Virus record (IMG/VR): IMGVR_UViG_3300047276_000389
Coordinates: 1 to 33,967 of that record
DNA from: a virus
Direction: 5' to 3' (one strand)
Length of the DNA stretch: 33,967 nucleotides
Under the pieces are notes generated by a model. That model worked only from the letters and a program-made list of their open reading frames with translations. It did not search any database and was not told the DNA's origin. Shown here piece after piece: positions 1 through 33,967 of this stretch. Both the position numbers and the translations under genes were made by a program. The first letter of the stretch is position 1, and each line of letters begins with the position of its first letter.

Positions 1-301
1 TCCATGAGGGGCGGCTGTACTTCGGCGGCTCCAAGTCCCGGCCCTCGACCATCTGGGGCAGCAAGATCGGCCTGTTCTTCGACTTCGTGCCCAGCGAGTC
101 CCTGGATGACGATGCGGTCGAGGCGACCCTGGACACCAACGAGCTGAACGTCATCACCGACATCATCAGCTCGAGGGACTTCCAGGTCTTCACCACCGGC
201 GGCGAGTTCTTCGTGCCGCAGCGCGACAGCGACCCGATCACGCCGCTGACCTTCACCTTCAAGCAGGTCAGCCGCAACGGCATCAAGCCTGGCACCCGCG
301 T
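1..301. repeat. Left copy of terminal overlap (circular genome end)
   Basis: Bases 1-301 match 33667-33967 over their whole length with five substitutions, at positions 98, 101, 116, 125 and 174 of this copy. All five are silent in the tail-nozzle reading frame: four are third-position changes and one is AGG/CGG for Arg. The overlap shows that the molecule closes into a circle of about 33,666 bp. It is an assembly or permutation overlap between strain variants and not an exact direct terminal repeat. Confidence 0.9.
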
Positions 302-1187
302 GCAATCGGTGGAGTCCGGCTCGGTCTACATCCAGCGCCAGGGCAAGAGCCTCAACGAGTTCGTGTTCACGGACACGCAGGCGACCTACGTCACGCAGCG
401 GATCTCGCTGCTGTCTGGCCACCTGCTCAAGACCCCGCAGCGCATCGCCATGCGGCGGGCCGCCAGCACGGATGAGTCCGATCTGCTGATGATGACCAAC
501 GAGGCCGACGGCAGCATGGCCGTCTTCTCGCTGATGCGATCGCAGCAGATCACCAGCCCGTCGGAGTTCATCACCGATGGCCGCTTCATTGATGTCGGCG
601 TGGATGTGAACACCATCTACTGCGTCACCAAGCGAACCTTCAACAGCGTGGATCGCTACTTCGTGGAGCAGTTCAGCGACAGCCTGTACACGGACTGCGC
701 CTTCACGGGCGGTTCCGCGGGCGGCGTGGGTTCCGGCCTGCCGCACATCGGCAAGAGCCTGAACGTGATCTGCGACGGCGTGCCGCAGGACAACGAGACG
801 GTGAGCGCCGGCGGTGCTGTGACCTTCGACCGCGAGAGCGTGACCAGCTACGAGGTGGGCCTGCCCATCACGGTATACGTCAAGACCATGCCGGTGGACA
901 TTCGCCTGCAGACCGGCAACCGCGTGGGCTTCAAGAAGCGGATCGTGGAGATCAATGCTGTGGTGAAAGACACCCAGCACATGACCATCAACAACCAGCC
1001 GGTGGCCTTCCGCTTGTTCGATAACCCGCTGCTGGATCTGCCCGAGCCGACATTCACCGGCATCAAGCGGGTCAACGGCGTGCTGGGTTACAGCCGCGAG
1101 CAGTCCATCGAAGTGGCGCAGACACTACCTCTGAAGATGACCCTGCTGGGCCTTGATTACCGCGTGGCGGTTCATTCTGGGACTTGA
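1..1187 (+). CDS. Tail nozzle/tubular protein, C-terminal part (gene continues from right edge)
   Basis: This is the 3' part of the gene that begins at 32853. The frame is open from base 3 (HEGRLYFGGSKS...) and the same peptide is encoded near the right edge, so the apparent GTG at 87 is internal and not a start. Joining the two ends gives about 666 residues. The protein follows the tail adaptor gene and precedes the internal virion proteins, the position of T7 gp12, which forms the tubular nozzle of short-tailed phages. This part is rich in beta-strand-like sequence and has no membrane segment. The assignment rests on gene order and on the N-terminal half; I see no catalytic motif. Confidence 0.75.
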   Translation, partial: HEGRLYFGGSKSRPSTIWGSKIGLFFDFVPSESLDDDAVEATLDTNELNVITDIISSRDFQVFTTGGEFFVPQRDSDPITPLTFTFKQVSRNGIKPGTRVQSVESGSVYIQRQGKSLNEFVFTDTQATYVTQRISLLSGHLLKTPQRIAMRRAASTDESDLLMMTNEADGSMAVFSLMRSQQITSPSEFITDGRFIDVGVDVNTIYCVTKRTFNSVDRYFVEQFSDSLYTDCAFTGGSAGGVGSGLPHIGKSLNVICDGVPQDNETVSAGGAVTFDRESVTSYEVGLPITVYVKTMPVDIRLQTGNRVGFKKRIVEINAVVKDTQHMTINNQPVAFRLFDNPLLDLPEPTFTGIKRVNGVLGYSREQSIEVAQTLPLKMTLLGLDYRVAVHSGT

Positions 1188-15503: not shown

Positions 15504-15676
15504 ACGTCTTGTCCGGGTAGGTATTGTTTCAGGGTTACGAAGACCAGGGTCACGATGGAATCCACGATCTCCTCGGCGTCCTTGTCGCTGCACTTGGGGA
15601 TGTTCACGCGCACGGCCTCGACGGCGCGGGCGTGGGCCACGGTCAGCTCATCGGCGTCCAGCATCTCGATGTTCAT
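15494..15676 (-). CDS. 60-residue acidic protein between exonuclease and RecT
   Basis: The start ATG at 15676 overlaps the exonuclease stop (ATGA), and the end overlaps the RecT start. The protein begins MNIEMLDADELTVAHARAVEAV and is acidic and helical, with two cysteines, one near the C-terminus. It has no known motif. Its fixed place between the two partners of the recombination system suggests a role with them, for example as an adaptor or nuclease modulator. That is inference only. Confidence 0.65.
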   Translation of the reverse strand: MNIEMLDADELTVAHARAVEAVRVNIPKCSDKDAEEIVDSIVTLVFVTLKQYLPGQDVCN

Positions 15677-16635
15677 GCCTTGGCCTCCTTGATGGTCAGC
15701 GTGGACTGCCGGATGGTGTAGGCCTCCTTGGCCGGCACCATCTTGGCGGGCTGGGCTTGGTAGGAGCGCGTCGGCCAGGCGATGCTGTACGTCCCGGCCA
15801 GCGCCCTGGTGGCATCGCCCATCAGCTTCTTGAGCTTCTTCTCGGCCTCAGCTGCATCCGCTTCTGCCTTCTTGATGCTGGCCCGGTGGCCCATGATCTC
15901 GGCGGCCAGGGCGACGGCATCGTCAGCCAGCCGGATGGTTTCCTCATTGGCCGGGTACAGGCCGCGATGCGCGGGCCACTGCTCGCCTTCTGCCGGCGGG
16001 TAGTACTCCACCACCCCGGTGTCCTTCCAGGCGTCCAGGCGGCGCTGGAAGTCCTTGGATACCGCGGCGATGCGATCCACCGTGCCCTGGTGCGGGGCGA
16101 ACAGGAAGACCCGCAGCTGCGTGCCCCGGTACAGCGTGCAGACCGCGCCCCACCTGGCTTGGATGATGTCCATCTGGGCCTGCAGCTGGATGGGGCCGCG
16201 CCACAGGGGAGGGATGTCCTCGACATCCATGCCGGTGAGCTTGGCCTCCAGCACGCCGACCCCGTCCAGCGTGATGCTGTCCTGGCCGATGACGTAGATG
16301 CCCTGGCTCGGGTCAGTGGTGATGATTTGCCCTCGCCCGTCGGCGGTGCCGTCCAGGCTGCAGCACAGGGGCAGGCTTTCGTGGAACTTGGCCACCGGGT
16401 GGTCGATGACCAGATCCACCAGCTCGAGGCGGCGGGCTGCATCCTCGAGGATCAGCGGCTCCATGAGGTTGCCCCAGGCCATGGCTTCGTTGCCGATGTC
16501 CGGGCGCTCCTCGCCCTTCATGGCGCGGATGCTGTACTCCAGCTCATCGTTGGGCGTCTGGTAGCGGCTGATGCCCATTACGCCGGGCAGGCGCGAGGCC
16601 GACAGCATCGTGTCGGGTGTGACTTTATTGACCAT
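15673..16635 (-). CDS. YqaJ-type viral exonuclease (lambda Exo-like)
   Basis: A 320-residue PD-(D/E)XK nuclease starting at ATG 16635 (MVNKVTPDTMLSASRLPGVM). The catalytic series is visible: GNLMEP (Glu59), CSLDGTADG (Asp95), GVLEAKLTG (Glu130 and Lys132) and IQLQAQMDI. The C-terminal third is a helical region with a coiled coil (AEKKLKKLMGD). The enzyme should resect 5' strands of double-strand ends and load the RecT protein for single-strand annealing, as lambda Exo/Beta and RecE/RecT do. It overlaps the upstream 101-residue gene by 11 bases and the downstream 60-residue gene by four. Confidence 0.88.
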   Translation of the reverse strand: MVNKVTPDTMLSASRLPGVMGISRYQTPNDELEYSIRAMKGEERPDIGNEAMAWGNLMEPLILEDAARRLELVDLVIDHPVAKFHESLPLCCSLDGTADGRGQIITTDPSQGIYVIGQDSITLDGVGVLEAKLTGMDVEDIPPLWRGPIQLQAQMDIIQARWGAVCTLYRGTQLRVFLFAPHQGTVDRIAAVSKDFQRRLDAWKDTGVVEYYPPAEGEQWPAHRGLYPANEETIRLADDAVALAAEIMGHRASIKKAEADAAEAEKKLKKLMGDATRALAGTYSIAWPTRSYQAQPAKMVPAKEAYTIRQSTLTIKEAKA

Positions 16636-16930
16636 GGTTCTCCTTGAGTTGATAGACCCGCACGACACGGGCATGGGCTTGGGGATGGGTGGCCTCGGTG
16701 TAACCGCAGGCTTGGAATTGCTTGGTCTTGAACACCGCGCCCAGGACGGACGGGTGCATCTCCGCGGGCAGCTCGAGGCTGGCGCGGATGTCGTTGATGC
16801 TGACGGTGCCCTGTCTGCGGGCGACTTCGACAGCTAGTGCCCGGCAGCGTGTGAGGAACGCTGCGTCTCTGCGCTGGAACAGATCCAGCTGGGCGTCACG
16901 GATCGCCCGTCCGATCTCGGCCTGCTGCAT
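16625..16930 (-). CDS. Winged-helix-like protein in the recombination operon
   Basis: A 101-residue protein (MQQAEIGRAIRDAQLDLFQRR) with a central segment GTVSINDIRASLELPAEMHPSVLGAVF that reads like a small winged-helix domain, followed by a C-terminal strand region. Similar small proteins sit beside recombination or replication genes in other phages. It is probably a DNA-binding accessory factor. It has no catalytic motif, and its stop overlaps the exonuclease start. Confidence 0.6.
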   Translation of the reverse strand: MQQAEIGRAIRDAQLDLFQRRDAAFLTRCRALAVEVARRQGTVSINDIRASLELPAEMHPSVLGAVFKTKQFQACGYTEATHPQAHARVVRVYQLKENHGQ

Positions 16931-17160: not shown

Positions 17161-17838
17161 TTAAATTCTTTTCAGTAAGTTGCTGACCTGGCTCGCATTC
17201 CAGTGCTGATTTCCCCTGGGGGTTTCAACACCTCGAGCGGTCAGAGCTGCAGCGATGTCGCGCAGCGTGGATGCACCAGACTTGCGGATGATGTCGCGCA
17301 CCAGGGGGCCGACCTTCTCGGCGTAGGCGTCGGCCTGGGCCTGGATCACCTTGATGCCCGCGGCGCTGCCGATCTCCGGCGTGGGGCTGCCCAGCTTCTT
17401 GCCCTGGCGCTTGAGCGCGGCCAGCGCCTGGGTGGTGCGCTCGCTGATGCGCTTGGCTTCGTACTCCGCGAACACCGCCATCATCTGCAGGAAGGTGCGG
17501 TCGGCCTCCGGCATATCGGCGCAGACGAAGGGCACCTTGCCGTTGAGCAGGGTCGAGATGAACTGCACATCACGCGCCAGGCGGTCGAGCTTGGCCACCA
17601 CCAGGGTGGCCTTCTGCTTGCGGGCCAGATCAAGGGCGGCCTGCAGCATGGGCCTGTGGCGCAGCCGCTTGCCGGTGCCCGACTCGACCTCGGTGAACTC
17701 GCCGATCAGCTGCCACCGGCCACCGTTGAGGAAGGTGGTGACCAGCTGGCGCTGGGCGTCCAGGCCAAGGCCGGACTGGCCCTGGCGGTCGGTGCTGACG
17801 CGGTAGTACGCGACGAACTTGCCAGTGTGAGGGGCCAT
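17161..17838 (-). CDS. Small serine recombinase (resolvase/invertase family)
   Basis: A 225-residue protein. ATG 17838 gives the standard N-terminus, KFVAYYRVSTDRQGQSGLGL, with the nucleophile at Ser15. Other catalytic elements are LVVAKLDRLARD (residues 79-90), FVCADMPEADRTFLQMMAVF and EYEAKRISERTTQAL (long E helix). The C-terminus carries a short helix-turn-helix region (STLRDIAAALTARGVETPRG...WNASQVSNLL). Such enzymes carry out resolution, inversion or, in some phages, integration. No tyrosine integrase, excisionase or CI-like repressor is seen, so its role is open. Its start lies six bases after the stop of the 17844 gene, suggesting coupled translation. Confidence 0.88.
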   Translation of the reverse strand: MAPHTGKFVAYYRVSTDRQGQSGLGLDAQRQLVTTFLNGGRWQLIGEFTEVESGTGKRLRHRPMLQAALDLARKQKATLVVAKLDRLARDVQFISTLLNGKVPFVCADMPEADRTFLQMMAVFAEYEAKRISERTTQALAALKRQGKKLGSPTPEIGSAAGIKVIQAQADAYAEKVGPLVRDIIRKSGASTLRDIAAALTARGVETPRGNQHWNASQVSNLLKRI

Positions 17839-17843
17839 GGCGA

Positions 17844-18026
17844 TCACCGGCAGACGCTGGCCACGAACCGGCCCAGGCGGGTGGTGATGATGCTGCAGCC
17901 CCAGGTGTAGCAGCCGGCCCACTCGATGGCTTCGCTGCTAGTCCAAGCGCGGTGGGTGGCCGTCCAGCCGTCAGCGTCCACGAAGGACACCTGGTAGGGC
18001 TTGAGGATGTTGAGGATCTTGCTCAT
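17844..18026 (-). CDS. 60-residue first gene of the leftward operon
   Basis: ATG 18026 has a good GGAG site in its leader. The protein (MSKILNILKPYQVSFVDADG) has a strand-rich start, several Trp (WTATHRAW, EWAGCYTWG) and three cysteines including one near the end. It looks like a small folded domain of unknown function. As the first gene downstream of the divergent control region it should be among the earliest expressed leftward. It has no similarity I can name. Confidence 0.6.
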   Translation of the reverse strand: MSKILNILKPYQVSFVDADGWTATHRAWTSSEAIEWAGCYTWGCSIITTRLGRFVASVCR

Positions 18027-19445: not shown

Positions 19446-19903
19446 GAAAGCGCAGCTCCTACCGCCCCAAGGGCGTGATCCTGAACACCATGAGCCATGT
19501 CCTGAGCGGCTTCGCGCCCGTGCGTGAGCATGGCAAGGCCACCACGCTGAAGATCAAGAACCACAACGCCCTGGCCAACATGACCCAGGGCAGCGGCAGC
19601 CGGGATGACATCGACATCCTGATCGCCTGCATGAACGTGGCCGAGGCGCTGGCCATCACCGCGGAGCTTGGCACTGAGTACCGGGCAGAGATCACAGCCG
19701 CCCAGGATGCCATTGTCAGCATGGGCAAGCGCGGTGTGCAGCGGAGCAAGTTCCTGTTCACGGGGCCTGAGCTGACGGCCATGAATCTGGGCATGGAGGT
19801 GCATGACGCACAGCTTGATGCCTGCACCGTTGGCCAGCTTGAGAAGGCGCTGGACTTCGTGGCCAGGGAGATCCGTGCCAAGCGTGCGAGGCCAATAGCA
19901 TGA
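19442..19903 (+). CDS. Conserved phage protein of unknown function
   Basis: A 153-residue soluble helical protein from ATG 19442 (MRKRSSYRPKGVILNTMSHV). The basic N-terminus, the block TTLKIKNHNALANMTQGSGSRDDIDILI and the central NVAEALAITAELGTEY recur in small proteins of proteobacterial phage early regions that I cannot assign a function. It lies between the membrane microprotein and the sigma-like gene with start and stop overlaps. It may be a transcription or replication accessory factor. Confidence 0.6.
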   Translation: MRKRSSYRPKGVILNTMSHVLSGFAPVREHGKATTLKIKNHNALANMTQGSGSRDDIDILIACMNVAEALAITAELGTEYRAEITAAQDAIVSMGKRGVQRSKFLFTGPELTAMNLGMEVHDAQLDACTVGQLEKALDFVAREIRAKRARPIA

Positions 19904-20343
19904 AGGGTTACGCATCACCGTACTACGGGCAGCTCCAAACCGCGAGCCTGCCCAGCGAGGTCAAGCGTATCTGGTACAGCCGGGACGAGGAGCTGCCGGA
20001 GCTGCCGCGCCACCGCTGGTCATTCGAGATGCAGGACGACATGGAGCAGACTGAGCAGCGCGAGCTGGTCATCAAGTTGCTGGAGACCATCTGCTTCACC
20101 GATCGTGAGGATCTGGTGGTGCGTCTGATGGTGATAGACGGATTCACCTTGGAAGAGGTGGGTCAGGAGCTTGGCTGCACCAAAGAGAGGGTGCGGCAGA
20201 TCTACATGAAGGCCATGAGGAAGGCCAGAACCCGGCAGAAGTCAGTCACCGGGGCAGAGTTGTGGCACATGGACTGCGAGGTAACCACTTGGCAGCACTA
20301 CAGTTGGCAGCAGCGGCAGATTAAGCGGGAGACACGCAAGTGA
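19900..20343 (+). CDS. Sigma70 region 4-like transcription regulator
   Basis: A 147-residue protein. Residues about 68-112 (DREDLVVRLMVIDGFTLEEVGQELGCTKERVRQIYMKAMRKAR) match the helix-turn-helix of sigma70 region 4.2, which normally reads the -35 element and contacts the flap and activators. Regions 1-3 are missing, so it is not a full sigma factor. It could be a late-gene activator that remodels host RNA polymerase or a sigma-like adaptor. The promoters I see with good -10 but poor -35 hexamers would fit a factor that changes -35 recognition. The C-terminal 35 residues are basic and Trp/Gln-rich. Confidence 0.8.
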   Translation: MKGYASPYYGQLQTASLPSEVKRIWYSRDEELPELPRHRWSFEMQDDMEQTEQRELVIKLLETICFTDREDLVVRLMVIDGFTLEEVGQELGCTKERVRQIYMKAMRKARTRQKSVTGAELWHMDCEVTTWQHYSWQQRQIKRETRK

Positions 20344-23898: not shown

Positions 23899-24152
23899 AG
23901 CGCCGCTGCTCCTGCCATCCCTTGAGCGCCTTCCACTGGCGCGACCCTGGCTACCCCACCCTGATTCAGTGGTCGGATCTGAACAAGAGCCAGGTGACCT
24001 CGGAGCGGTCAAGCGAGGTGGTCAACGCCAAGCGGGCCGATGGTGTGGATGTAGCCTTCATTCCCGGCCTGTCCAAGCGCGTCCTGCAGATCAGGATCGA
24101 ACCCCGGCTCTTCCACGTTTTCAGCAAAGCACGAACCCATGGCAAGAACTAA
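23895..24152 (+). CDS. 85-residue basic protein overlapping the terminase start
   Basis: ATG 23895 overlaps the preceding stop. The protein (MKRRCSCHPLSAFHWRDPGY) is basic and strand-rich, with two early cysteines and a His nearby (CSCH), and ends 14 bases inside the large terminase gene. It may be a small terminase- or DNA-associated factor. No motif identifies it. Confidence 0.55.
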   Translation: MKRRCSCHPLSAFHWRDPGYPTLIQWSDLNKSQVTSERSSEVVNAKRADGVDVAFIPGLSKRVLQIRIEPRLFHVFSKARTHGKN

Positions 24153-25701
24153 AGAGCAATCCGACAAGGCCGTGGCCGCATCCGGCCTGCGCCTGGACTT
24201 CAGCAAGTCCCCGGTCATCTACGACTTCATTCAGAGCAATGCCTTCGTGCAGGGCATCATGGGGCCGGTGGGGTCGGGCAAGTCCTACGGCTGCGCCTCC
24301 AAGATCTTCATCAAGGCGGTGCAGCAAAAGCCCAGCCCCGTGGACAACATCCGCTACAGCCGCTGGGCGGTGGTGCGAAACAGCTACCCGATGCTGAAGA
24401 CCACCACCATCAAGACCTGGCTGGATCTGTTCCCCGAGTCCACCTTCGGCCCGATGCTGTGGACACCGCCCATCACCCATCACATCCGGCTGCCGGCCCG
24501 CGACGGGGCCGCCGGCATTGACTGCGAGGTGATCTTCCTGGCCCTTGACCAGCCCAAGGATGTCCGCAAGCTGCTCTCGCTTGAGCTGACGGGTGCGTGG
24601 GTCAACGAGGCCCGCGAGTTGCCCAAGGCGGTGATCGACGGCCTGACGCACCGGGTCGGTCGCTACCCGACCAAGCGCGATGGCGGCGCGACCTGGCACG
24701 GCATCTGGATGGACACGAACCCCATGGACGACGATCACTGGTGGTTCAACATGGCCGAGAAGGAAAAGATGTCCGGGCCGTATGCCTGGAAGTTCTGGAA
24801 GCAGCCCGGCGGCGTGGTCGAGGTGGACACCGATGCCCTGCCCGAGAACCCCGAGGCCAACGATCATGTGCTGTCGGCTGGCAAGTGGTGGAAGGTCAAC
24901 CCCAAGGCTGAGAACATCAACAACCTGCCCGCCGGCTACTACCCGCAGATGCTGCTGGGCAAGAGCCTGGATTGGATCCGCTGCTACGCCGGCGGCATCT
25001 ACACCTACGTCCAGGAAGGCCGCCCGGTCTGGCCCGAGTACGAGGACGGCACCATGTCCGGCGACACCGAGGTGGCCCCGGATGTGCCCATCCAGGTCGG
25101 CCTGGACTTCGGCCTGACGCCCGCGGCCACCATTGGCCAACGCCTACCCAATGGCCGCTGGCTGATCCACAAGGAGATCGTCACCTTTGACATGGGCCTC
25201 GAGCGTTTCGGCATGGAGCTGCTTGCCCTGCTGAACCAGCACTACCCCAACCACCAGGTGCTGCTGTGGGGTGACCCCGCGGGCATGGCCAGGGATGCGA
25301 TCTACGAGGTGACCAGCTTCGACTTCCTGCGGACGCTGGGCCTACGGGCGCAGCCCACTGCCAGCAACGACTTCAAGGTGCGCCGCGAGGCTGCAGCTGC
25401 ACCCATGCAGCGACTGATCGCGGGCAAGCCGGGCCTCATTGTGAACAGGGAATGCAAACTCCTCCGCAAGGCACTCGGCGGTGGATACCATTTTAAGCGC
25501 GTGTCTGTGGGTGCCGGTCAAGAGCGTTTCCGCGATGCCCCCAACAAGAACGAGCATTCGCACATCGGCGACTCCTTCGGCTACCTGATGCTGGGCGGCG
25601 GCGAGTACAACCGCATGACCCGCACCCCCAGCCTCGGCGGCAGGCCCATGAACCAGACGGTCATCATGCAGCAGGACTTCGATATTTTCGGGGCGCGATA
25701 G
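24139..25701 (+). CDS. terL: Terminase large subunit
   Basis: A 520-residue packaging motor. The ATPase half has Walker A GPVGSGKS (residues 42-49), a Walker B-like TGAWVNEARE with Glu157, and the coupling motif MDTNPMDDDHW (191-201). The nuclease half shows the RNase H-fold acidic residues in GLDFG (Asp323), WGDPAG (Asp379) and HIGDSF (Asp478). It pumps DNA into the procapsid through the portal and cuts the concatemer. With permuted ends and no fixed terminal repeat visible, headful cutting is likely. Length and motif order are normal. Confidence 0.95.
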   Translation: MARTKEQSDKAVAASGLRLDFSKSPVIYDFIQSNAFVQGIMGPVGSGKSYGCASKIFIKAVQQKPSPVDNIRYSRWAVVRNSYPMLKTTTIKTWLDLFPESTFGPMLWTPPITHHIRLPARDGAAGIDCEVIFLALDQPKDVRKLLSLELTGAWVNEARELPKAVIDGLTHRVGRYPTKRDGGATWHGIWMDTNPMDDDHWWFNMAEKEKMSGPYAWKFWKQPGGVVEVDTDALPENPEANDHVLSAGKWWKVNPKAENINNLPAGYYPQMLLGKSLDWIRCYAGGIYTYVQEGRPVWPEYEDGTMSGDTEVAPDVPIQVGLDFGLTPAATIGQRLPNGRWLIHKEIVTFDMGLERFGMELLALLNQHYPNHQVLLWGDPAGMARDAIYEVTSFDFLRTLGLRAQPTASNDFKVRREAAAAPMQRLIAGKPGLIVNRECKLLRKALGGGYHFKRVSVGAGQERFRDAPNKNEHSHIGDSFGYLMLGGGEYNRMTRTPSLGGRPMNQTVIMQQDFDIFGAR

Positions 25702-32238: not shown

Positions 32239-32853
32239 ATGGCTGCAGGCGACACTGGAATCACCATCTGCTCAGATGCGCTGCTGATGCTGGGCGCAAA
32301 GGCCATCTCTTCGTTCAACGATGGCACCGACGAGTCAAGCGTCTGTGACCGTCTGTACCCAGACATTCGTGACTCCACGCTGATGATGTATCCGTGGAGT
32401 TTCAGCTTCAAGAAGATCCAGCTGTCCAGGCTCATCACCGCGCCTGGCAGTGTCTGGAAGTACGCCTACCAGCTCCCCGGCGACCGCCTGGGCAACCCTC
32501 GCGCCGTGTACGACACCGCGGCGGTTGGCGGCACACCGCGTAAGGAGTGGGAGATCCAGGGCGATCAGATCCTGACCAACCTGGAAAGCGTCTACATCGA
32601 CTACCAGTACAGCGTTGGCGAGTTCGCCATGCCGCAGTACTTCATCCAGCTGCTCAAGTACCAGGTGGCCTGGCACATCGCGGAGCCGATCACCGAGCAG
32701 GCCGAGAAGGGTGCCTTCTGGCGGCGCATGGCGCTGGGTGAGGTTGGCGAGAACGGACGCGGCGGCTACTTCCGGCAGGCCACGCAGATCGACGGCGCGA
32801 ACAACGCGGTCAAGGTGATCGACGACTACACGCTCATCACGGCGAGGTACTGA
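32239..32853 (+). CDS. Tail tube adaptor (tail tubular protein A, gp11-like)
   Basis: A 204-residue protein, close to T7 gp11 (196). The N-terminus GDTGITICSDALLMLGAKAI, then LYPDIRDSTLMMYPWSFSFK and IDYQYSVGEFAMPQYFIQLL, is the standard pattern of this adaptor, which joins the connector to the nozzle and binds fibres. It has an AAGAGG ribosome site, and its stop overlaps the nozzle ATG by one base. The C-terminal residues include GGYFRQATQIDGANN. Confidence 0.85.
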   Translation: MAAGDTGITICSDALLMLGAKAISSFNDGTDESSVCDRLYPDIRDSTLMMYPWSFSFKKIQLSRLITAPGSVWKYAYQLPGDRLGNPRAVYDTAAVGGTPRKEWEIQGDQILTNLESVYIDYQYSVGEFAMPQYFIQLLKYQVAWHIAEPITEQAEKGAFWRRMALGEVGENGRGGYFRQATQIDGANNAVKVIDDYTLITARY

Positions 32854-33967
32854 TGCCGCGCTTTGTAGACCTCCAGACCAACTTCTCGACCGGCGAGCTT
32901 GACCCGCTGCTGCGTGCGCGTGTCGAGCTGGAGCAGTACAACAACGCGCTGGCCAAGGCCACCAACGTCCTGATCCAGCCCCAGGGCGGCCTGCGCCGCC
33001 GGCCTGGCACCAAGCACATCCTGGAGCTGCCCAACACCAGCACCGCCAGCGCCGGCAACGGCGTGCGCCTGGTGCCCTTCCAGTTCAGCGTGTCCGACAG
33101 CTATATGCTGTGCTTTACGCACCAGCGTATGTATGTCATCAAGAACGGTGCGGTGGTGACGGCCATCAACGGCGGGGCCAACAACTACCTGACGACCAGC
33201 ATCACCAGCGACATGGTGGACGATATGTGCTGGACGCAGAGCGCGGACACCCTGATCGTGGTGCATCCCGACCTGCAGCCGGTGCGGATCGTGCGCGGGG
33301 CCAACGATGCCACCTGGACGGCCACCACCATCACCTTCGACAGCATTCCCAAGTACGCCTTCACGCTGACCATCACCAGCTCCACCACGCTGGGTGCTGG
33401 TCATCTGACCCCCAGCGCCGTGTCTGGCAACGTGGAGCTGACCTCGCAGAACTCTGCCTTCACCGCCGCCAGCGTCAACCAGTACATCAACGCCACCCCG
33501 CAGGGCCGTGCCCGCATCGTGGAGTACGTCAGCGCCACCAAGGTCAAGGCTGTCACCGAATACCCGTTCTTCGACACCACCAACATCGCCCAAGGCAACT
33601 GGGAGATCGAGTCCGGCTACGAGGATGTCTGGAGCAGCGGCAAGGGCTGGCCGCGGTCGGTCACCTTCCATGAGGGGCGGCTGTACTTCGGCGGCTCCAA
33701 GTCCCGGCCCTCGACCATCTGGGGCAGCAAGATCGGCCTGTTCTTCGACTTCGTGCCCAGCGAATCACTGGATGACGATGCTGTCGAGGCAACCCTGGAC
33801 ACCAACGAGCTGAACGTCATCACCGACATCATCAGCTCGCGGGACTTCCAGGTCTTCACCACCGGCGGCGAGTTCTTCGTGCCGCAGCGCGACAGCGACC
33901 CGATCACGCCGCTGACCTTCACCTTCAAGCAGGTCAGCCGCAACGGCATCAAGCCTGGCACCCGCGT
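32853..33967 (+). CDS. Tail nozzle/tubular protein, N-terminal part (gene runs off the right edge)
   Basis: The first 371 codons of the nozzle gene, beginning at ATG 32853. The opening FVDLQTNFSTGELDPLLRAR, then NNALAKATNVLIQPQGGLRR and RPGTKHIL, is a widespread signature of this tail protein family in podoviruses. The rest is beta-strand-rich. The gene continues at window position 302 and ends at 1187, about 666 residues in all, somewhat shorter than T7 gp12 (794). It forms the conduit through which DNA and ejection proteins leave. Confidence 0.82.
   Translation, partial: MPRFVDLQTNFSTGELDPLLRARVELEQYNNALAKATNVLIQPQGGLRRRPGTKHILELPNTSTASAGNGVRLVPFQFSVSDSYMLCFTHQRMYVIKNGAVVTAINGGANNYLTTSITSDMVDDMCWTQSADTLIVVHPDLQPVRIVRGANDATWTATTITFDSIPKYAFTLTITSSTTLGAGHLTPSAVSGNVELTSQNSAFTAASVNQYINATPQGRARIVEYVSATKVKAVTEYPFFDTTNIAQGNWEIESGYEDVWSSGKGWPRSVTFHEGRLYFGGSKSRPSTIWGSKIGLFFDFVPSESLDDDAVEATLDTNELNVITDIISSRDFQVFTTGGEFFVPQRDSDPITPLTFTFKQVSRNGIKPGTR
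33667..33967. repeat. Right copy of terminal overlap (circular genome end)
   Basis: This is the second copy of the 301-base sequence at the left edge. It starts and stops with the window, as expected when a circular or circularly permuted genome is cut at an arbitrary point. It lies inside the tail-nozzle gene and continues that gene's frame into position 302 of the window without a break. Confidence 0.9.

Follow-up and report, generated by a model that had tools for sequence, protein, structure and literature searches.

Why does a virus record of 33,967 bases end in nearly, but not exactly, the sequence with which it begins, and does this repeat tell where the DNA of the virus physically ends? 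The record in question (referred to here as the window, i.e., the whole stretch of DNA analyzed, which is the whole virus record) derives from a podovirus-like phage. The overlap of its ends is very probably an assembly artefact that carries real strain variation: a circular assembly graph was walked once, having been entered via a fragment of a second strain. Read in this way, the overlap is uninformative on the physical ends of the virus DNA.

Anatomy of the End Overlap

Self-alignment of the window shows that bases 1-301 are repeated at 33667-33967; the alignment is ungapped, and the two copies agree at 296 of the 301 positions (Table 1). The five mismatches (left/right copy) are 98 G/A, 101 C/A, 116 G/T, 125 G/A, and 174 A/C. 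Four of them fall at third codon positions and one is an AGG/CGG exchange, and all five are synonymous in the frame of the tail nozzle gene. To the right of the last mismatch, the two copies are identical over exactly 127 nt, a run that lies flush with the contig end; to the left of the first mismatch, the identical run is 97 nt long. An exact-match end test applied to the window found no overlap, because the strain branch extends beyond the shared 127-mer and such a test therefore misses it. The overlap sequence was also sought elsewhere in the record, and none was found.

The window begins and ends inside the nozzle gene. Both halves of the gene match phrog_376 (tail protein), and the part searched is 55% identical to the 'putative tail tubular protein B' of Methylophilales phage MEP301. 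When the frame is joined across the junction (32853..33666+1..1187), an intact protein of 666 amino acids is obtained with either allele set. The two nozzle fragments are thus one gene, and the genome unit measures 33,666 bp instead of 33,967. The original prediction of a 301-base end overlap whose differences are exclusively synonymous is confirmed, with the reading frame intact through the junction.

Table 1. Features of the window that bear on the end overlap.
Feature	Position	Strand	Remark
Left overlap copy	1..301	+	Allele set G-C-G-G-A at 98, 101, 116, 125, 174; read as second-strain dead-end branch
Right overlap copy	33667..33967	+	Allele set A-A-T-A-C; read as main-circle strain
127-nt stretch common to both copies	175..301	+	k-mer (graph vertex) where the two strains are taken to merge
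Second copy of the 127-nt k-mer	33841..33967	+	Flush with contig end
Tail nozzle (tail tubular protein B) gene, N-terminal part	32853..33965	+	Cut by contig end
Same nozzle gene, C-terminal part	3..1187	+	Cut by contig start
Large terminase gene (terL)	24139..25701	+	Anchor for comparing cut points

Strain Variation at the Five Sites

One account of five differences in an otherwise exact overlap is that one copy carries sequencing or assembly base errors; the differences are just five in number, and coverage may be low where they lie, close to the end of a contig. Their nature argues against this account. Only 212 of the 891 single changes possible in the overlap stretch (~24%) are silent, and the chance that five of five would be silent is ~8e-4, or ~2e-4 when the types of substitution are held constant. 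Moreover, among 78 aligned relatives (80 nozzle loci were fetched from IMG/VR among the matches listed), both alleles of all five sites are each present in at least 5, as compared with 172 of 903 possible single changes that are that common. In particular, the right-end allele is carried by 24, 5, 13, 23, and 64 of the 78 relatives at the five sites in order. If the changes were random, the chance that the right-end alleles of all five sites would be natural in at least 5 of 78 relatives is ~2.5e-4, a figure that treats relatives that are not independent and overlaps with the silent-site argument. Nor would random error account for an exact 127-mer at the very end of the contig. Base errors are therefore a highly improbable source of the differences.

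The whole left-end set occurs in 1 of the 78 aligned relatives (L011) and the whole right-end set in none of them, and the nearest relative among the matches listed (L003), 96% identical over the 301 bases, carries G-C-G-G-C. A scan of IMG/VR with one 39-base pattern that admits both alleles at the first four sites returned no matches, and the two strains were not found in other records by it. The original prediction had attributed the differences to co-existing strain variants under purifying selection; this attribution is supported by the silence of all five changes, by the occurrence of both alleles in relatives, and by the silent-only differences seen in the overlaps of three related records (see below). 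Over the overlap, the two strains differ at five bases, all within a short tract of 77 bases of the nozzle gene; the adjoining 97 and 127 bases are identical. The 77-base tract could stem from a limited exchange of alleles between phage lineages that co-exist, as opposed to uniform divergence, though we regard this as unlikely.

Proposed Assembly-Graph Explanation

The features described above would be expected if the contig followed a circular de Bruijn graph, built with a maximum k of 127, exactly once around (33,666 bp). The break in the circle would lie within the nozzle gene owing to differences between two co-existing strains at that place. The closed circle would represent the strain with the right-end alleles, while of the strain with the left-end alleles only a short, dead-ending branch would have been assembled, starting at base 1 and joining the circle at the 127-mer 175-301. 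An assembler path that runs from the branch to the merge point, around the circle, and to the merge point again would repeat 301 bases and would place the strain differences to the left of the shared 127-mer. Two properties of the window agree with a strain branch: the mismatches all lie to the left of the shared k-mer and are of the natural-variant type, and an exact sequence of maxK length (127 nt) lies flush with the contig end.

The proposed path was reproduced in a toy de Bruijn graph with k=127 that contained one circle and a partial second strain beginning at base 1. Two pieces came out of the graph, a branch of 301 nt and a loop of 33,793 nt, and their union at the shared 127-mer is identical to the window in every letter; since the branch model was fitted to the window, the exact match demonstrates sufficiency and not uniqueness. 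The model assumes that coverage of the left strain starts at base 1. With a fully covered second strain, the toy graph produced branches of 331 nt instead. A closed strain bubble was consequently rejected, as its branches at k=127 would be 331 nt versus the 301 nt seen, and an open branch fits better.

According to excerpts of two articles, the JGI metaSPAdes command is run with -k 33,55,77,99,127 (PMC11584781, PMC6243002), and one of the two also gives a JGI MEGAHIT run on metatranscriptomes, in which the largest k was 123 (PMC6243002). With k taken from the length of the exact run, we infer that the record was made by metaSPAdes at k=127; the left alleles presumably belong to the less covered strain. 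The effect itself is already known: it is an ordinary de Bruijn assembly effect, and the observation is thereby explained.

End Overlaps in Related Records

The survey comprised 29 records of at least 29 kb, namely the window and 28 records from IMG/VR searches with the nozzle, TerL, and major capsid protein, taken among the matches listed (best 80 loci per search). Exact end overlaps were found in 11 of the 29 records, imperfect overlaps in seven, and none in 11. The exact overlaps measure 127 nt in five records (G005, G006, G023, G029, and G034), 126 nt in G037, 123 nt in G013 and G035, 114 nt in G039, 58 nt in G024, and 55 nt in G031. The lengths of 114, 58, and 55 nt, like the 126-nt runs, are not all accounted for by the k=127 model and count against it.

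In six of the seven imperfect overlaps, an identical stretch of 126 or 127 nt extends right up to one contig end. Besides the window (301 nt, five mismatches), these include G022 (208 nt, one mismatch), G036 (245 nt, two), G030 (234 nt, nine), and G025, in which 126 exact bases are followed by four unmatched bases. All differences in the overlaps of G022 (1/1), G036 (2/2), and G030 (9/9) are silent. Exact end runs of 126 nt, one short of 127, occur in four records (G025, G030, G036, and G037), and the k=127 model gives no cause for them; metagenome 3300044641 holds one record of each length (G029, 127 nt; G037, 126 nt).

The sixth record, G007 (IMG/VR 3300032050_000316, 40,209 bp), resembles the window in that its ends match imperfectly and an exact run of 127 nt extends right up to one of them, but its overlap extends over ~5.7 kb in three blocks of 88-95% identity and thus represents a much longer strain branch (L096-L098; 1-6062 against 34481-40209). 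Two strains are probably chained in this one record. Silent differences number 140 of 157 in the first block and 99 of 170 and 21 of 64 in the others (13 differences lie outside the ORFs used); this classification is rough, as it relies on ORFs of the terL strand only, and with the longest ORF on either strand the silent counts become 133, 85, and 22. A further record, G012 (L099-L101), is much longer than its relatives (51,030 bp) and has a second partial terL ~4.3 kb from the first; it is possibly a strain chimera.

The exception among the imperfect overlaps is G015 (L114-L115), in which 1-289 match 32507-32795 over 289 nt with 24 mismatches, including a cluster at 194-202; no 126- or 127-nt exact run occurs in it. 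Among the 23 differences that could be classified, 15 are silent and eight change the protein. The k=127 model does not explain this overlap, which counts against the assembly-graph explanation.

Physical Ends and DNA Packaging

Alternatively, the genome might be linear and carry at its physical ends a genuine, fixed direct terminal repeat (~301 bp) whose copies have diverged. Both copies are indeed located at the contig ends; however, these ends fall within one intact gene, and an exact match of 127 nt abuts one of them, a feature shared with other records. Measured from the start of terL, the positions at which the 29 contigs are cut (a comparison that included the 11 records without end overlap) are scattered round the genome (Rayleigh R 0.11, p ~0.69), with the ends of the 28 relatives lying all round it, and hence the contig ends do not mark a constant physical terminus in this phage group. 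This result rejects the contig ends as fixed physical ends and not a terminal repeat elsewhere. Moreover, none of five cultured TerL relatives (MEP301, BcepC6B, Ss1, Hodr, and VA-RY-3) has an end repeat in its deposited record, although deposited records are often trimmed and may be circularized. Taken together, a fixed repeat at these positions is extremely unlikely.

The original prediction had gone further and took the genome to be circularly permuted; with headful packaging, the overlap would then be its terminal redundancy. In the toy graph, permutation would yield a circle, but a linear genome bearing a fixed terminal repeat (200 nt) gave the same unbranched k=127 cycle as a permuted, terminally redundant genome. 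A circular graph therefore does not decide the mode of DNA packaging, and circular permutation is not supported by the overlap. Furthermore, how long the overlap is and where it lies are set by k and by the strain branch rather than by packaging.

The TerL of the window is ~40% identical to those of Pelagibacter phage Hodr, BcepC6B, Dunaliella viridis virus SI2, and Ss1, and it also matches part of the Mx8 TerL. The identity to BcepC6B TerL is 42%, and an excerpt of one study describes the BcepC6B-like prophage vB_E332 as lacking fixed termini by PhageTerm (PMC12860723); in the same excerpt, however, the statement covers all 82 phages alike and may reflect an insensitive analysis (PMC12860723, 2026). 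No direct demonstration of the packaging mode of BcepC6B or Ss1 was found in the portions of the literature covered. Terminal redundancy is a very unlikely source of this overlap; permutation of the genome itself is plausible and may still be true.

Comparison with Known Systems

The nearest cultured relative found is MEP301 (MW452941), whose TerL is 72% identical to that of the window. Its genome (34,774 bp) is similar in size and was also assembled as a circular contig, from which its authors, in the relevant excerpt, reached a similarly ambiguous conclusion on the physical ends (PMC8024684). Unlike the window, the deposited MEP301 record has no end overlap. Among the other genes of the window is a serine recombinase (17161-17922, minus strand; Pfam Resolvase, 1.6e-26) with a weak match to Recombinase PF07508 (22.8 bits, cut-off 21.1); the MEP301 paper, as excerpted, reports no PF07508 in MEP301 (PMC8024684). 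A 147-amino-acid ORF (19900-20343, plus strand) contains a sigma-70 region 4 domain (PF04545, 2.4e-11), and another ORF (15673-16674, minus strand) resembles a YqaJ-like viral recombinase (PF09588, 4.3e-7).

Self-overlap of a metagenomic virus contig should be read with caution, as it can consist of a shared k-mer and a strain branch and proves neither a terminal repeat nor permutation. Among the 29 records of this phage group, 7 of the 18 self-closing contigs close only imperfectly, and an exact end-repeat test would leave such probably complete genomes labeled as linear.

The closest parallel to the overlap comes from the work on COBRA. As described in excerpts of that article, contigs broken by metaSPAdes or MEGAHIT have end sequences of maxK length in common, and within-population variation is one simulated cause of contig fragmentation (PMC10914622). 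The window likewise has an exact end sequence of maxK length, here 127 nt, at a place where within-population variation would break the assembly. It differs from the overlaps described for COBRA in that the contig overlaps itself and in that the strain branch extends past the 127-mer.
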